A stretch of 64,000 bases of DNA, taken from Methanolinea sp. (GTDB lineage: Archaea > Halobacteriota > Methanomicrobia > Methanomicrobiales > Methanospirillaceae). Of the stretch, positions 5,702 through 40,743 are shown piece after piece. The notes beneath the pieces are model-generated. The model was not told where the DNA came from and did not search any database. It was given only the letters and a program-made list of their open reading frames with translations. Each line of letters opens with the position of its first letter. The first letter of the stretch is position 1. The position numbers were made by a program, and so were the translations under genes. The stretch spans positions 186,001 through 250,000 of the forward strand of contig JASFYI010000001.1 in NCBI GenBank assembly GCA_030055515.1, written 5' to 3'.

Positions 5702-5976
5702 GGGTCCGCGTGAAATCCTTTGCCGTCCTGCGGCAGTACGTCCCCGCGGAGACGGAGGTCGAACTCCGCGAGGGATCGACCGTCCGCGACCTCCTCGACC
5801 TGCTCGTGAAACGTGCCCCGGGACTCGCGGCCGAACTCTTCGACAGCAACGGGGACCTCAAGGAGTACGTGAACATCCTGCGGAACGGGAGGAACATCCA
5901 CTTCATCGGTGGCCTTACGACCCCCCTCGGGGAAGGGGACCTCGTCGCCCTGTTCCCGCCCGCGGGGGGAGGGTAA
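5698..5976 (+). CDS. MoaD/ThiS-like ubiquitin-fold sulfur carrier
   Basis: About 92 residues if translation starts at the GTG overlapping the MoeB-like stop (GTGA); in-frame GTG codons at 5674 and 5692 are alternatives. The beta-grasp pattern is visible: an N-terminal strand (VRVKSFAVLRQYV), a helix (VRDLLDLLVKRAPG), and the end GEGDLVALFPPAGGG with a C-terminal Gly-Gly. That tail is adenylated and thiocarboxylated in MoaD and SAMP proteins. As third gene of the AOR unit it is likely the sulfur donor subunit for the AOR pterin. A role as an archaeal protein modifier (SAMP) cannot be excluded. Confidence 0.85.
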   Translation: MRVRVKSFAVLRQYVPAETEVELREGSTVRDLLDLLVKRAPGLAAELFDSNGDLKEYVNILRNGRNIHFIGGLTTPLGEGDLVALFPPAGGG

Positions 5977-6076
5977 GCCCGGGGGACCCGCCCGCTGGCC
6001 GGGAGCGCGTGATTCTCGCGGTCGCCCTTGGGAAAGTGCTATAACTCCACGGAGGAAAGAGTTCCAAGGATTACCC

Positions 6077-6087
6077 GGTATATCCCC
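6077..6087 (+). promoter_or_regulatory. Possible TATA box for the thioredoxin-CcdA gene
   Basis: CCCGGTATATC lies about 35 bp before the GTG start at 6117, with GGAGAT between them as a Shine-Dalgarno candidate. A second AT-rich element (GCTATAACT) lies near 6038. Weak evidence, from spacing and composition only. Confidence 0.35.
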
Positions 6088-6116
6088 CGCGTCCGGGCAA
6101 ACAGGAGATACGCGGC

Positions 6117-7274
6117 GTGAAGCCAGACAGAAGCGACGGAAAGGCCATCCTCCTCTTCATCCTCCTCGCGTCCGTCCTCGTACAAGCGACATACGCCACC
6201 GAGGATCCCGCCATGGAGGGGGGCGGTGCAATCCCCCTCGGCCCGGACCACAGGTTCTCGGAGAACGGCCCGGTCGTCGTGATGTTCTACAACCCGCACT
6301 GCGGCGACTGCATGAGGACACTGCCCTTCGTCCAGGAATGGGCGGGCAGGCACCCTGAGCTCGAGATCCACCTCCTCGACATAAAGGAGAATTTCGAGTA
6401 CTGGAAGCTCTTCGCGGTCTACAAGGAGGCCTACGCGACGGGGTCGATCCCTGTCCCGGCGGTCTTCGTCGGTGACCGTTTCCTCGTCGGCTACGAGGAG
6501 ATCACCACGGGGCTCGAAGACGCAGTCCGGGAACAGGAGGGATCCTTCACATCCCCTCTCGCGCACCCCGTGGTGTCCTGGCCGGTGAACCTCTCGGCAG
6601 GTGAGCTGACGATCCCCGTTGTCATCGTCGCGGGCCTCGCCGACGGGATCAACCCTTGCGCGTTCTCTGTCCTCATCCTCCTCCTCGTCGGCCTCTCGTG
6701 CGCGGGATCGAGGAAGAGGATGGTCCTCGCGGGGATCTGCTTCATCGGGAGCGTCTTTGTCTTCTACTTCCTCTCGGGCCTCGGCCTCTTCTACGTCGTG
6801 CAGAGTGCCGGGATATCGAGGGCGATAGGGATCCTCGCGGCAGGGATCGCCTTCTTCATCGGTGCCGCATCCCTCTATGAAGGGCTCACGGGCGGGAGGG
6901 TGCCGGGCCTCGCGATCCCCGAGTCCCGGAAGGGCGTCATCGGGGAATACATCGGGAAGGCATCTGTCCCTGCCTCCCTCGTCCTCGGTATCCTCGTGGG
7001 GATGTTCGAGCTCCCCTGCACGGGCGGAATTTACCTCGCGATCCTCTCCCTCATCGCCGACAGGATGACAATCGCGGAGGGAATCCCCCTCCTCCTCGTC
7101 TACAACGCGTCATTCGTCCTCCCGCTCGTCCTGATCCTCGCTGGAGTTACCCTCGGCGTCCAGACAGAGACACTCGACCGGTGGAGGGTCGAACACAGGC
7201 GGGCGGTCCGCGTCGTCATGGGACTCGTCCTCGTCGGGCTCGGGGTCCTCCTCGCCCACTCGCTCCTCGCGTGA
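6117..7274 (+). CDS. Thioredoxin-like and CcdA-type membrane protein fusion
   Basis: 385 residues from a GTG preceded by GGAGAT. A hydrophobic N-terminus (residues about 10-28) looks like a signal or anchor. Next comes a thioredoxin-fold domain with CGDC in FYNPHCGDCMRTLPF and a cis-Pro region (IPVPAVFVG). From about residue 165 there are six hydrophobic segments with the CcdA/DsbD cysteines in NPCAFS and LPCTGG. Such proteins pass reducing equivalents through the membrane by thiol-disulfide exchange. The fusion suggests the outer thioredoxin is the direct partner. No cytochrome c synthesis gene is visible here, so the target may be an exported thiol protein. A homologous arrangement exists in bacterial DsbD, but with a different domain order. 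Confidence 0.85.
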   Translation: MKPDRSDGKAILLFILLASVLVQATYATEDPAMEGGGAIPLGPDHRFSENGPVVVMFYNPHCGDCMRTLPFVQEWAGRHPELEIHLLDIKENFEYWKLFAVYKEAYATGSIPVPAVFVGDRFLVGYEEITTGLEDAVREQEGSFTSPLAHPVVSWPVNLSAGELTIPVVIVAGLADGINPCAFSVLILLLVGLSCAGSRKRMVLAGICFIGSVFVFYFLSGLGLFYVVQSAGISRAIGILAAGIAFFIGAASLYEGLTGGRVPGLAIPESRKGVIGEYIGKASVPASLVLGILVGMFELPCTGGIYLAILSLIADRMTIAEGIPLLLVYNASFVLPLVLILAGVTLGVQTETLDRWRVEHRRAVRVVMGLVLVGLGVLLAHSLLA

Positions 7275-37896: not shown

Positions 37897-38208
37897 TCAC
37901 TCACCCGGATTTTCCGCGGTGAGGTGGAGGGTGATAATCCCGTTGCAGGCCTTGCACGCGTAGAATTTTTCCGTCCAGCAGGAAGCACAGGCCCACCTCC
38001 CGCAGAGGGCACATTGCCTCAAGTCTTTCCTCGGGAACGTCGTGTTGCAGAGGTCGCACGAATAGCGGGAGAAACTGGCAGGATCCTTTTCGGGGGGATC
38101 CCCCTGCCTCCTCACCCTCTCGATGTCCTTCCTGATGCGGGTGATGAGGTCTTCCCCTCTCTCTTTTTCCAGGCGATTACCTTGGGACCTGCTTTTCCAG
38201 AGCCTCAA
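37897..38208 (-). CDS. Small cytoplasmic protein with four CxxC zinc motifs
   Basis: 103 residues if it begins at a TTG preceded by GGAGAGGA inside the end of the previous gene; no ATG or GTG fits downstream, so the start is uncertain. The charged N-terminal half looks helical. The C-terminal half has four CxxC pairs (CDLC, CALC, CASC, CKAC) with spacing that fits two zinc ions, as in FYVE, RING or B-box-like cross-brace folds. It is last in the six-gene operon with the EWGL coiled-coil proteins. No function is known; protein binding is the likely use of such a domain. Confidence 0.6.
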   Translation of the reverse strand: MRLWKSRSQGNRLEKERGEDLITRIRKDIERVRRQGDPPEKDPASFSRYSCDLCNTTFPRKDLRQCALCGRWACASCWTEKFYACKACNGIITLHLTAENPGE

Positions 38209-38515
38209 TCCTCTCCTCCAGACTTGCGAGTTCCTCACCGAATTCTCTCTCGAATTTCCGGAGTGCTGCCATCCTCTCCTCTTCTCTCGCGATGAGGGGG
38301 AGATTCTCGTCCCTAAAACGCTCGGCGACGGGACGCCCGACGAGGCCCCATTCCTCGACGAGGCGGTCGAACTTCCTGTCGAGGTACTCGTCGATACGGC
38401 TCTCGATCGGGCGGGCAATGTCAATTCTCCCCGAACTCCCCCGGAGGAAGTAGTAGAGCGCGAACGCGATGAGGGCGATGAGGATGAGCAGGAGGAGGAC
38501 TTCTGCGAGTGTCAT
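38177..38515 (-). CDS. Membrane-anchored coiled-coil protein with EWGL motif (third copy)
   Basis: 112 residues from an ATG overlapping the previous stop by ATGA. One transmembrane helix near residues 3-24 at the N-terminus, a short linker, then EYLDRKFDRLVEEWGLVG and a charged coiled coil to the end (EFGEELASLEERIEALEKQ). The motif is shared with the two genes upstream. The helix would place the coiled coil in the cytoplasm if N-out. I recognise no named family. Confidence 0.7.
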   Translation of the reverse strand: MTLAEVLLLLILIALIAFALYYFLRGSSGRIDIARPIESRIDEYLDRKFDRLVEEWGLVGRPVAERFRDENLPLIAREEERMAALRKFEREFGEELASLEERIEALEKQVPR

Positions 38516-38733
38516 GTCCGCTGCCTCCTCACGCGGTCGAGCCTTTCCTCGAGTTCCGTGAGTTTCGCGGATGCGGCGGCCTCGAATCCCGCGCACTTCC
38601 GCGCCTCCTCCTCAAGGGCAGAGAGGCGGGCGGGGAGGTCGCCGAGGTCGCGGCGCGTCGCGAGGCCCCACTCCCTGATGAGGTCTTCCATGCGGCGGTC
38701 GAGGTACGATCCCAGGTAGTCCGGCACTCTCAT
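38512..38733 (-). CDS. Small coiled-coil protein with EWGL motif (second copy)
   Basis: 73 residues with overlaps of four bases at both ends. It starts with SYLDRRMEDLIREWGLAT, the same motif as its neighbours, and continues as a charged coiled coil (LSALEEEARK... LTELEERLDRV). No membrane helix and one Cys. Its short length and preserved motif suggest a subunit that assembles with the two paralogues. Unknown family. Confidence 0.7.
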   Translation of the reverse strand: MRVPDYLGSYLDRRMEDLIREWGLATRRDLGDLPARLSALEEEARKCAGFEAAASAKLTELEERLDRVRRQRT

Positions 38734-39047
38734 TGTCCCTCGAGCCTCCTTATCTCCCTCTCGAGGGCAGAAGCCCTCTCTTCAAGTCTCTCCCTGTTTT
38801 TCTCAAGGAAGTCGATCTGCCTGTGGACCCGCTCTATTCGCCGCTCTATCTCCCTCAAGTGCATCGTGGAGACGAGCCCCCACTCGCCCACGATCGCGGG
38901 GAAATTGCGATCGAAGTACTCGTCGAGGTCCTTTTCCATCGTCGGGAGGATCCCCCCGATTGCCGTGGGGATCTCCCGGAGGGATTCGAGCGGGAAGTAC
39001 GATTCTCCCGTATGTTTCCGCGTCACGTAGTCGGTCACCGGTATCAC
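38730..39047 (-). CDS. Coiled-coil protein with EWGL motif (first copy)
   Basis: 105 residues from an ATG overlapping the previous stop. About 45 unconserved residues, then DEYFDRNFPAIVGEWGLVS and a long coiled coil (ERRIERVHRQIDFLEKNRERLEERASALEREIRRLE). Soluble and rich in Arg/Glu. It is the most N-terminally extended of the three copies. Function unknown. Confidence 0.7.
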   Translation of the reverse strand: MIPVTDYVTRKHTGESYFPLESLREIPTAIGGILPTMEKDLDEYFDRNFPAIVGEWGLVSTMHLREIERRIERVHRQIDFLEKNRERLEERASALEREIRRLEGQ

Positions 39048-39427
39048 CCGAGCCTCTCCTCTTCGCGGGCGATCTTCGCGAGCATCTTCTCGAGTCTCGC
39101 GAGCACTACCCTGTCCTCGAGGCGTTTCAACCTCTTCTCCACGATGCTGTGCCGCGCGAGGATGTCGCTCTCAAGACCCCTCGTCTCCTCGTCGAGTCTC
39201 CTCAGTTCCTCCATGTCCTGCCGGGAGATCCGGTAAAACGGCCTCCCCCTCTGTTCCATGTCGGCCTTCAGGAGCTCGATCTTCGCCCTCTCGAGCTCGA
39301 GCTGGGCGAGCCGAGGCCCGGAATACATCAGGCGGAACTCCCTCACGATGAAGTAGAGGATGACGAGGCCGAGAAAGAACAGGAGGACCGGGATGTAGGC
39401 CTCGAATGTGATCCACACGTCAGCCAT
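39044..39427 (-). CDS. Single-helix membrane protein with coiled coil
   Basis: 127 residues from the ATG at 39427. One hydrophobic helix (residues about 9-28, AYIPVLLFFLGLVILYFIV), then a charged, mainly helical cytoplasmic part with two coiled-coil stretches. It lacks the EWGL motif. Second gene of the operon, overlapping the next by ATGA. It could provide a membrane anchor for the complex. Confidence 0.68.
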   Translation of the reverse strand: MADVWITFEAYIPVLLFFLGLVILYFIVREFRLMYSGPRLAQLELERAKIELLKADMEQRGRPFYRISRQDMEELRRLDEETRGLESDILARHSIVEKRLKRLEDRVVLARLEKMLAKIAREEERLG

Positions 39428-39449
39428 CTCTCGCCTCACCCGTGGTGCA

Positions 39450-39812
39450 TCAGAGGTCCTTCTCCCCGAGCTTTTTCTTCACTGATTCGATGCCCTTACC
39501 GATGGACTCCTCCACCTTGCCCACTGCCTGCGCAGCACGCTCCTTCATGGGGGGCACCCTCGTCACCACCACCTCGCCGCCGGGGACCGCCCCCGCCTCG
39601 GCGATGTCCTCGGGGCTCAACCGGATGAGCCCTTCCTCCACCAGCGTGTCCGCGTAGACAGTGACAACGACGGGTTTCGTGCCAGTCCCTGCGGAGATCT
39701 CCACTTCATCACCCTCATTGATTCCGAGGGCCTTGAGGTGCACTTCGTTGATCCTGGCCCGCCCGCGACTCGGAAAGACCCTCTCCATGACCTTTAGTTT
39801 CAGGCTACCCAT
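39450..39812 (-). CDS. Cdc48-N-like double-psi beta-barrel protein with C-terminal helix
   Basis: 120 residues from the ATG at 39812. The pattern RARINEVHLKALGINEGDEVEI, then VVVTVYADTLVEEGLIRLSPEDIAEAGAVPGGEVVV, resembles the double-psi barrel found at the N-terminus of Cdc48/VAT ATPases and related small proteins. The last 35 residues form a charged helix (QAVGKVEESIGKGIESVKKKL). No AAA ATPase is nearby, so it may be an adaptor or a free-standing barrel. It heads the operon behind a TATA box at leaderless spacing. Confidence 0.7.
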   Translation of the reverse strand: MGSLKLKVMERVFPSRGRARINEVHLKALGINEGDEVEISAGTGTKPVVVTVYADTLVEEGLIRLSPEDIAEAGAVPGGEVVVTRVPPMKERAAQAVGKVEESIGKGIESVKKKLGEKDL

Positions 39813-39835
39813 ACGTGAAGGAAGGGCAGCAATGG

Positions 39836-39843
39836 TATATAAT
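39836..39843 (-). promoter_or_regulatory. TATA box of the EWGL operon
   Basis: ATTATATA on the minus strand, centred 28 bp before the ATG at 39812. With an archaeal start site about 25 bp downstream this gives a leaderless mRNA, consistent with the absence of a Shine-Dalgarno before that ATG. Confidence 0.7.
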
Positions 39844-39942: not shown

Positions 39943-40743
39943 ATGCGGCCGGTGATCGTCGCCCTCCTCCTCGCCCTCCTCCTCGCGGAGGGTGCACTCG
40001 CGTACGAGCTCGTGATCAGCGCGCCCGCCGAGGTCCGCCTCGGCCTGCCGATCGAGGTGACGGGAACCACGAATTTCCCCGAGGGCACCGAGTTCGACAT
40101 CGTGCTCTACAGGATCCAGACGACTTTGCCCGAGCCCGTCGCGGAGAAAACGATCGTCGTCTCGGGTTCGAGGTCGTTCGAAGTGACTTTCGGGACGATC
40201 GGGCTTTCGCCGGGGGACTACAAGGTCGAGGTCAGGTTCCGCACCGACCCGGGCTCGAAGCTCAGCTCCGGCTCGGTCACGACCCGCCTCGTGAAGGTCA
40301 CGGACCGGTCGGGGGAGATCGTGATTACCTCCCCGCTGGACCAGGTGCTCGGCGAGGCACTCAGGATCGAGGGGTACGTCCCCAAGGCAGGGGTCGTCAC
40401 GCTGACGATGAGGGTGACGGGCCCGGACGGGGCCGTCGGTCCGCCGGTGGACATCAGGACGACGACAGTCCTCGGCAAGGACGACGGGTTCTTCGCGAGG
40501 ACGGTCCCCGTCGGGGAGAAGGGGAACTACTACGTGGATTTCTCGGACGCGAGGGGACTCATCACGACGGTGAAGTTCACCGTCGGGGAACCGCCCGGTG
40601 CAGTGACTCCCGCGGAGACGCAGTCCCTGGGGACGGCCAGTGACACCGTGCCGCCGGCCGCATCCCCCTTCCCCGCCGCGGCATGCGCGGCCATCCTCCC
40701 CGTCCTCGCGTGGCTGTTCTCGTCGCGGAACCGGCGGGGGTGA
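39943..40743 (+). CDS. Secreted surface protein with C-terminal anchor
   Basis: 266 residues. A signal peptide ends near ALAYE (residue about 20). The body consists of beta-rich Ig-like stretches, for example around residues 25-110 and 120-210, each starting with a Pro-rich strand. A Pro/Thr/Ser linker (about 220-240) leads to one hydrophobic helix and RNRRG at the end, so the protein is anchored outward. No family is recognised. It is likely an envelope protein of the methanogen. Confidence 0.75.
   Translation: MRPVIVALLLALLLAEGALAYELVISAPAEVRLGLPIEVTGTTNFPEGTEFDIVLYRIQTTLPEPVAEKTIVVSGSRSFEVTFGTIGLSPGDYKVEVRFRTDPGSKLSSGSVTTRLVKVTDRSGEIVITSPLDQVLGEALRIEGYVPKAGVVTLTMRVTGPDGAVGPPVDIRTTTVLGKDDGFFARTVPVGEKGNYYVDFSDARGLITTVKFTVGEPPGAVTPAETQSLGTASDTVPPAASPFPAAACAAILPVLAWLFSSRNRRG

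Follow-up and report, generated by a model that had tools for sequence, protein, structure and literature searches.

A conserved six-gene operon of small proteins in Methanomicrobiales that may encode a membrane-associated scaffold

The stretch of Methanolinea sp. DNA that we analyzed (64,000 nucleotides, here called the window) carries on the minus strand, at positions 37897–39812, six small genes in the order A-B-C-D-E-F (Table 1). We propose that the products of this operon build a single scaffold attached to the membrane at its cytoplasmic face, in which they would form a complex and A would bind lipid, and we give this reading a probability of roughly 55%. The first-pass annotation of the window, made from the letters alone, had proposed a six-gene operon at this place and had recognized in it no named system; all six open reading frames are present there on the minus strand, and we likewise found no named system of this composition. 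Four of the six proteins, B to E, match no named family, and A matches named families only through its domains. Each known system that we tested as an explanation of the whole operon failed a defining feature, although the six proteins may still turn out to represent some version of a membrane machine already known.

Table 1. Promoter and genes of the operon, with positions in the window and predicted features of the products.
Feature	Position	Strand	Predicted features	Remark
Promoter TATA box	39836..39842	-	TTATATA	-30 to -24 from A's ATG
Gene A	39450..39812	-	Cdc48-N-type double-psi beta-barrel and Lys/Glu/Ala amphipathic helix tail	
Gene B	39044..39427	-	One N-terminal membrane helix and cytoplasmic coiled-coil	
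Gene C	38730..39047	-	Soluble paralogue 1; YFDR..EWGL helix, turn, coiled-coil	GTG start uncertain
Gene D	38512..38733	-	Soluble paralogue 2; minimal 73-residue unit	In every complete locus
Gene E	38177..38515	-	Paralogue 3 with N-terminal membrane helix	
Gene F	37897..38208	-	Prok-RING_2, eight-cysteine binuclear zinc finger	TTG start within E

Comparison of the window with its nearest relatives gave dN/dS values of 0.04–0.39 in each case that allowed computation, and all six are therefore real genes under purifying selection. Gene A starts at a conserved ATG (39812), and 39843 is the upstream boundary of the TATA box. Across 64 relatives, A+T content peaks at 0.91–0.98 at −31 to −26 before this ATG, and a ribosome-binding site precedes only 5 of 64 A genes, against most of the internal ones. 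The A+T peak and the scarcity of ribosome-binding sites at A are the pattern expected of a leaderless transcript in archaea. The single leaderless promoter of the first reading is thus upheld by a TATA box 26–31 bases before the ATG of A and by the rarity of a ribosome-binding site there.

Short or overlapping junctions had also been described, and they are typical of the operon at large. In the window, A and B are separated by 22 bp, the B–C junction is tight, C–D and D–E overlap by 4 bp and E–F overlaps by 32 bp; in ~60 relatives, the median gaps from A to F are +19, +5, −4, −4 and −32. Overlaps are found at 55 of 61 C–D, 46 of 63 D–E and 66 of 67 E–F junctions, an arrangement that fits balanced synthesis of partner proteins. 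Gene C has candidate GTG starts at 39047, 39038 and 39026, of which 39038 fits the relatives best. The start codon of F is TTG in 37 of 70 loci, and this weak start, located ~32 bases before E ends, is kept across genera; it may set F at a low level coupled to that of E.

To define the distribution of the operon, we searched for F in a collection that covers 84,980 species and obtained 71 loci, all in records named Methanomicrobiales or subgroups of this order, or only Euryarchaeota. The exact order A-B-C-D-E-F is present in 62 of these loci and, with additional matches, in two more, and the remaining seven are cut off by a contig end near F. Every locus from a named genome that has sufficient upstream DNA (64/64) carries all six genes in order, and the arrangement is not unique to the genome of the window. 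The expectation that the cluster would be co-conserved in many methanogens holds for many Methanomicrobiales, including the cultivated Methanogenium marinum and Methanogenium cariaci, but the cluster is limited to part of this one order.

Within this range, the genes behave as a unit. PF14445, the family of F, is present in 33 of 61 genomes, and in 32 oriented loci (fetched, or that of the window), A and B are found in 30 and the paralogues in 31. Among 393 genomes sampled across the phylum, E is present in 31, and these are also the 31 with strong F matches; weaker PF14445 matches in the rest of the phylum are to zinc fingers and only partial. In the 10 genomes tested for them, A and B proved single-copy and all-or-none. 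The whole set is missing from some close relatives, among them G015 and also G033, though a tested congener of the latter carries the operon. The flanks are not conserved, the commonest neighbor family recurring in just 16 of 71 loci. Sporadic presence of the whole set between changing flanks thus delimits a six-gene unit to which no outside gene consistently belongs. The operon appears to be gained or lost as one whole, and its patchy distribution shows that close relatives can do without the module. Comparison of G022 with G033 revealed no precise empty site, synteny ending upstream of the operon. A quick concatenated tree, rooted at its midpoint, nests Methanogenium loci (Methanomicrobiaceae; L085, L094, L097 and L136) beside loci from genomes named Methanolinea, a hint of lateral transfer between families. 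Rod or filament morphology was rejected as a correlate of the operon, given its presence in Methanogenium, whose cells are irregular cocci.

Several local features were recorded in the course of this survey. The M. cariaci locus (L136) has extra matches for B and F, and the first CxxC region of its F (5932–6258) is apparently frame-shifted, with the frame resuming later; these anomalies look like either a decaying operon or a sequencing error. One genome (G027) contains a D–E-bearing region twice, on contigs C181 and C343, through duplication or mixed assembly. Short open reading frames (~60–90 amino acids) in G367, G171 and other f8/g65 genomes score just above the Prok-RING_2 cut-off over part of the profile, and they are probably unrelated zinc fingers from another family of the phylum. 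Just upstream of the operon in the window, and divergent from it, lies a gene for a secreted-looking protein with a weak match to the BGTF surface domain (39943–40743, plus strand); similar proteins lie near the operon in ~14 of 71 loci, a higher frequency than that of most neighbors.

The products of C, D and E had been described as three adjacent paralogues, and profile–profile comparison relates them pairwise with probabilities of 98.1–98.5% (E values of 1e-13 to 3e-15; 98.4% for D versus E). Each is monophyletic, forming a separate clade (supports of 0.98 for the C proteins, 0.89 and 0.71), so that the triplication is ancient; all three copies are retained in every complete locus. The motif said to unite them stood only in part. 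Its core, Y-x-D-R...I-x-[ED]-W-x-L, is conserved, but it is only in the genome of the window that all three copies read EWGL: in ~60 relatives, the sequence is EWGL or EWDL in C, mostly EWDL or EWNL in D, and mostly EWSL or EWQL in E. Judged from these sequences, the triple EWGL is partly coincidence. The motif belongs to no characterized family, and the matches of C and E in PDB profile searches are coiled-coils only, many of them designed. An AlphaFold2 model of E (pLDDT of 79) places helices at residues 3–26 (membrane), 37–56 (motif) and 61–109 (coil), but its pTM is only 0.33 and the packing of the helices is thus not fixed by the model. C and D have the motif and coil of E without the anchor, and the paralogues accordingly differ in their membrane helix, which only E possesses.

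Helices and coils of this kind also occur in proteins that coat storage granules, and among 16 C proteins, nine match the Phasin profile (PF05597; best 1.9e-5). Together with the amphipathic tail of A, this could be taken to mean that C, D and A cover a storage inclusion as phasins do. However, the match of D in the window involves only the end of the profile (18 bits against a cut-off of 28.8), B and E are membrane-anchored, and a search for PHA synthase, in which the control worked, found none in the window's own genome and none in 60 of the 61 genomes covered; the one genome with a PHA synthase lacks the operon. A granule coat is thus extremely unlikely, and, with PHA synthase missing, we read the phasin resemblance of C as probably a common pattern of hairpin and coiled-coil.

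The membrane association of B and E is consistent across homologs. A hydrophobic helix is present in 63 of 63 B homologs, one per protein and N-terminal, as expected of the membrane coiled-coil protein that B had been taken for, and an N-terminal membrane helix is present in 69 of 69 E homologs. The K+R count in B is 0.03 before the helix and 4.0 after it, and both proteins have practically zero K/R ahead of the helix and 3–4 behind it. From this strong positive-inside bias, the long C-terminal parts of B and E are predicted to be cytoplasmic. No Pfam family matched B, and the possibility that it is a fourth paralogue was rejected (33% probability in profile comparison).

Small anchored proteins next to a peripheral one recall the PspABC system, and the operon might accordingly act in envelope stress or membrane repair, A binding the membrane peripherally and B and E supplying the anchors. 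The anatomy is similar, a peripheral amphipathic protein accompanied by small one-helix coiled-coil proteins, and 2 of 43 E proteins weakly match PspB. There is, however, no homology, and PspA does not track the operon: it is found in 7 of 61 relatives, four with F and three without, and PspA/IM30 is absent from the window's own genome. We consider a Psp-like system improbable.

The Cdc48-N-like barrel of the first-pass annotation is borne out by CDC48_N matches in 27 of 28 A homologs (best 3.5e-9), although the A of the window by itself is under the Pfam cut-off. The same set of homologs matches Molydop_binding (24/28), Apolipoprotein (12/28) and TrkA_C (5/28, best 2.6e-9), and PDB profile matches of A comprise apolipoprotein A-IV (4e-10), double-psi beta-barrel designs, Cdc48-derived barrels and, weakly, alpha-synuclein. 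The amphipathic periodicity of A is 94–98 degrees in relatives, and the shorter tail in the window peaks at 100; 11-residue lipid-binding helices have a periodicity of ~98 degrees. A has 120 residues in the window and up to 275 elsewhere.

Two alternative functions derive from these domains. In eukaryotes, free-standing barrels of the Cdc48-N superfamily are Cdc48 adaptors, and A might, in the manner of Ufd1, bring membrane substrates held by B to F to Cdc48/VAT or the proteasome. The barrel of A is indeed of Cdc48-N type, yet A proteins contain no AAA match, the six-gene unit has no ATPase or protease gene, and such barrels also occur in unrelated enzymes, as the Molydop_binding matches illustrate. 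A role as a proteostasis adaptor is therefore unlikely, if somewhat less so than a Psp-like one. The second alternative is that the operon regulates transport or ion homeostasis in a ligand-gated manner, TrkA_C being the sensor. This domain lies C-terminal to an amphipathic linker in the A proteins of L037, L038, L046, L051 and L062, long-type A proteins are found in 8 of 64 loci, and in the tree, the long proteins are placed in the region of Methanospirillum and its relatives. TrkA_C is missing from most other A proteins, including that of the window, and the unit has no transporter gene, which makes such a regulator quite improbable. We tentatively suggest that TrkA_C may be ancestral in A and has since been lost.

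The annotation of F as a protein with four CxxC pairs is correct as to its eight cysteines, but it had omitted that the family already exists in Pfam as PF14445 (Prok-RING_2), which F matches with 88.8 bits against a cut-off of 22.4. In an alignment of 45 sequences, seven cysteines are invariant and one is conserved in at least 90%, and the spacing CX2C-11-CX2C-4-CX2C-7-CX2C is found in 69 of 70 homologs. In two loci (L112:5938–6231 and L051:5982–6275), aspartate replaces the fifth zinc cysteine (CGRWADDNCW). The model of F has a pLDDT of 85, with a core at 95–98, and its seven top-ranking PDB folds are FYVE or FYVE-related (Z of 5.1–6.1), with Foldseek E values above 0.2 and hence not significant. 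Spacing and model appear to suit FYVE/PHD-type fingers better than RING E3s. The best PDB sequence match of F, TFIIE alpha (5e-4), was rejected, as the alignment omits the last CxxC and breaks the second.

The Prok-RING_2 match invites the reading that F is a RING E3 in a ubiquitin-like conjugation system. The FYVE/PHD-like spacing and nearest FYVE folds argue against it, as does the conserved unit, which contains no E1, E2, Ubl or JAB gene; in searches run without a positive control, UQ_con matched 0 of 61 genomes and Prok-E2_B 0 of 41. Conjugation is very improbable, and these results suggest that the family name should not count as evidence of ubiquitin-type chemistry. No experimentally tested function for Prok-RING_2 was found in the papers searched, of which the two that name 'Prok-RING' are eukaryotic surveys. 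A 2011 study is said to have defined the Prok-RING families and may have noted this neighborhood.

Taken together, membrane anchors, coiled-coils, a putatively lipid-binding A, a zinc finger and a triplicated subunit are most simply accounted for by a membrane scaffold. In this arrangement, B and E would each be held by one N-terminal helix with their coiled-coils inside the cell, and the soluble C and D would join E through motif helix and coiled-coil. As three old copies always kept together, C, D and E would be non-redundant subunits of a heteromer with a fixed place for each paralogue. A would be peripheral, its amphipathic tail binding lipid in the manner of synuclein or apolipoprotein and its barrel offering a docking surface, and the zinc finger of F would dock a partner or bridge subunits. 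The assembly would probably organize, tether or maintain a membrane patch. We infer the complex from co-inheritance and the role, in turn, from the complex. Against the scaffold stand the short tail of A in the window genome, the patchy distribution of the operon, and matches to coiled-coils and amphipathic helices that are partly compositional and arise easily; the genes of an operon may also contribute to a single process although their products do not assemble with one another.

A more far-reaching version of the scaffold is a doubtful possibility: an archaeal membrane-organizing machine without bacterial or eukaryotic homolog, built on a heteromeric coiled-coil platform, in which the FYVE-like finger and A, synuclein-like in binding lipid and equipped with the Cdc48-N barrel, mark or remodel membrane patches. 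Such a machine would work like eukaryotic tethers and effectors through parts that are unrelated or only distantly related. Strict co-inheritance and tight packing in archaea that include cultivated methanogens point to a so far unstudied machine of the archaeal membrane. One operon joins a FYVE-like finger, a Cdc48-N barrel and synuclein-like repeats, and prokaryotic membrane-tethering parts thereby become testable. Known anti-phage defense and a phage origin were rejected for the operon: none of the six proteins has a PADLOC match, no phage record encodes E, and the sole PHROG match is a weak coiled-coil.

Comparison with known systems reveals likeness in parts. Phasins of the PhaF/PhaI type resemble the operon products in joining an amphipathic helix to a coiled-coil, PhaF having an amphipathic helix and a short oligomerizing coiled-coil and forming a tetramer (PMC3574117), but here PHA synthase is missing, the matches are weak and partial, and two of the proteins carry membrane anchors. 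PspABC is alike in its small anchored and peripheral coiled-coil proteins, but no component is homologous and PspA does not co-occur. The N-domain barrel of Cdc48/VAT matches A by profile, whereas A lacks the ATPase and carries in its place an amphipathic tail, joined in some cases by TrkA_C. F clearly belongs to Prok-RING_2, a name that implies RING, yet its spacing and model come closer to FYVE/PHD-type fingers. It shares with RING E3s eight zinc ligands in four pairs, but canonical RINGs have 2–3 residues between ligands 4 and 5, and the four residues found in F (69/70) lie outside this spacing. FYVE fingers bind phosphoinositides through (R/K)(R/K)HHCR; this motif is absent from F, which has L-[RK]-Q-C at the position in nearly all homologs. 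With the FYVE and FYVE-related fingers of endofin, Vps27, EEA1 and melanophilin, F shares the cross-brace cysteine spacing, and they are its best structural matches (Z of 5.7–6.1, rmsd of 2.1–3.2), which at Foldseek E values above 0.2 does not imply common ancestry. The FYVE-related finger of melanophilin aligns in sequence with all four CxxC pairs of F and has the same four-residue gap between the second and third pairs.
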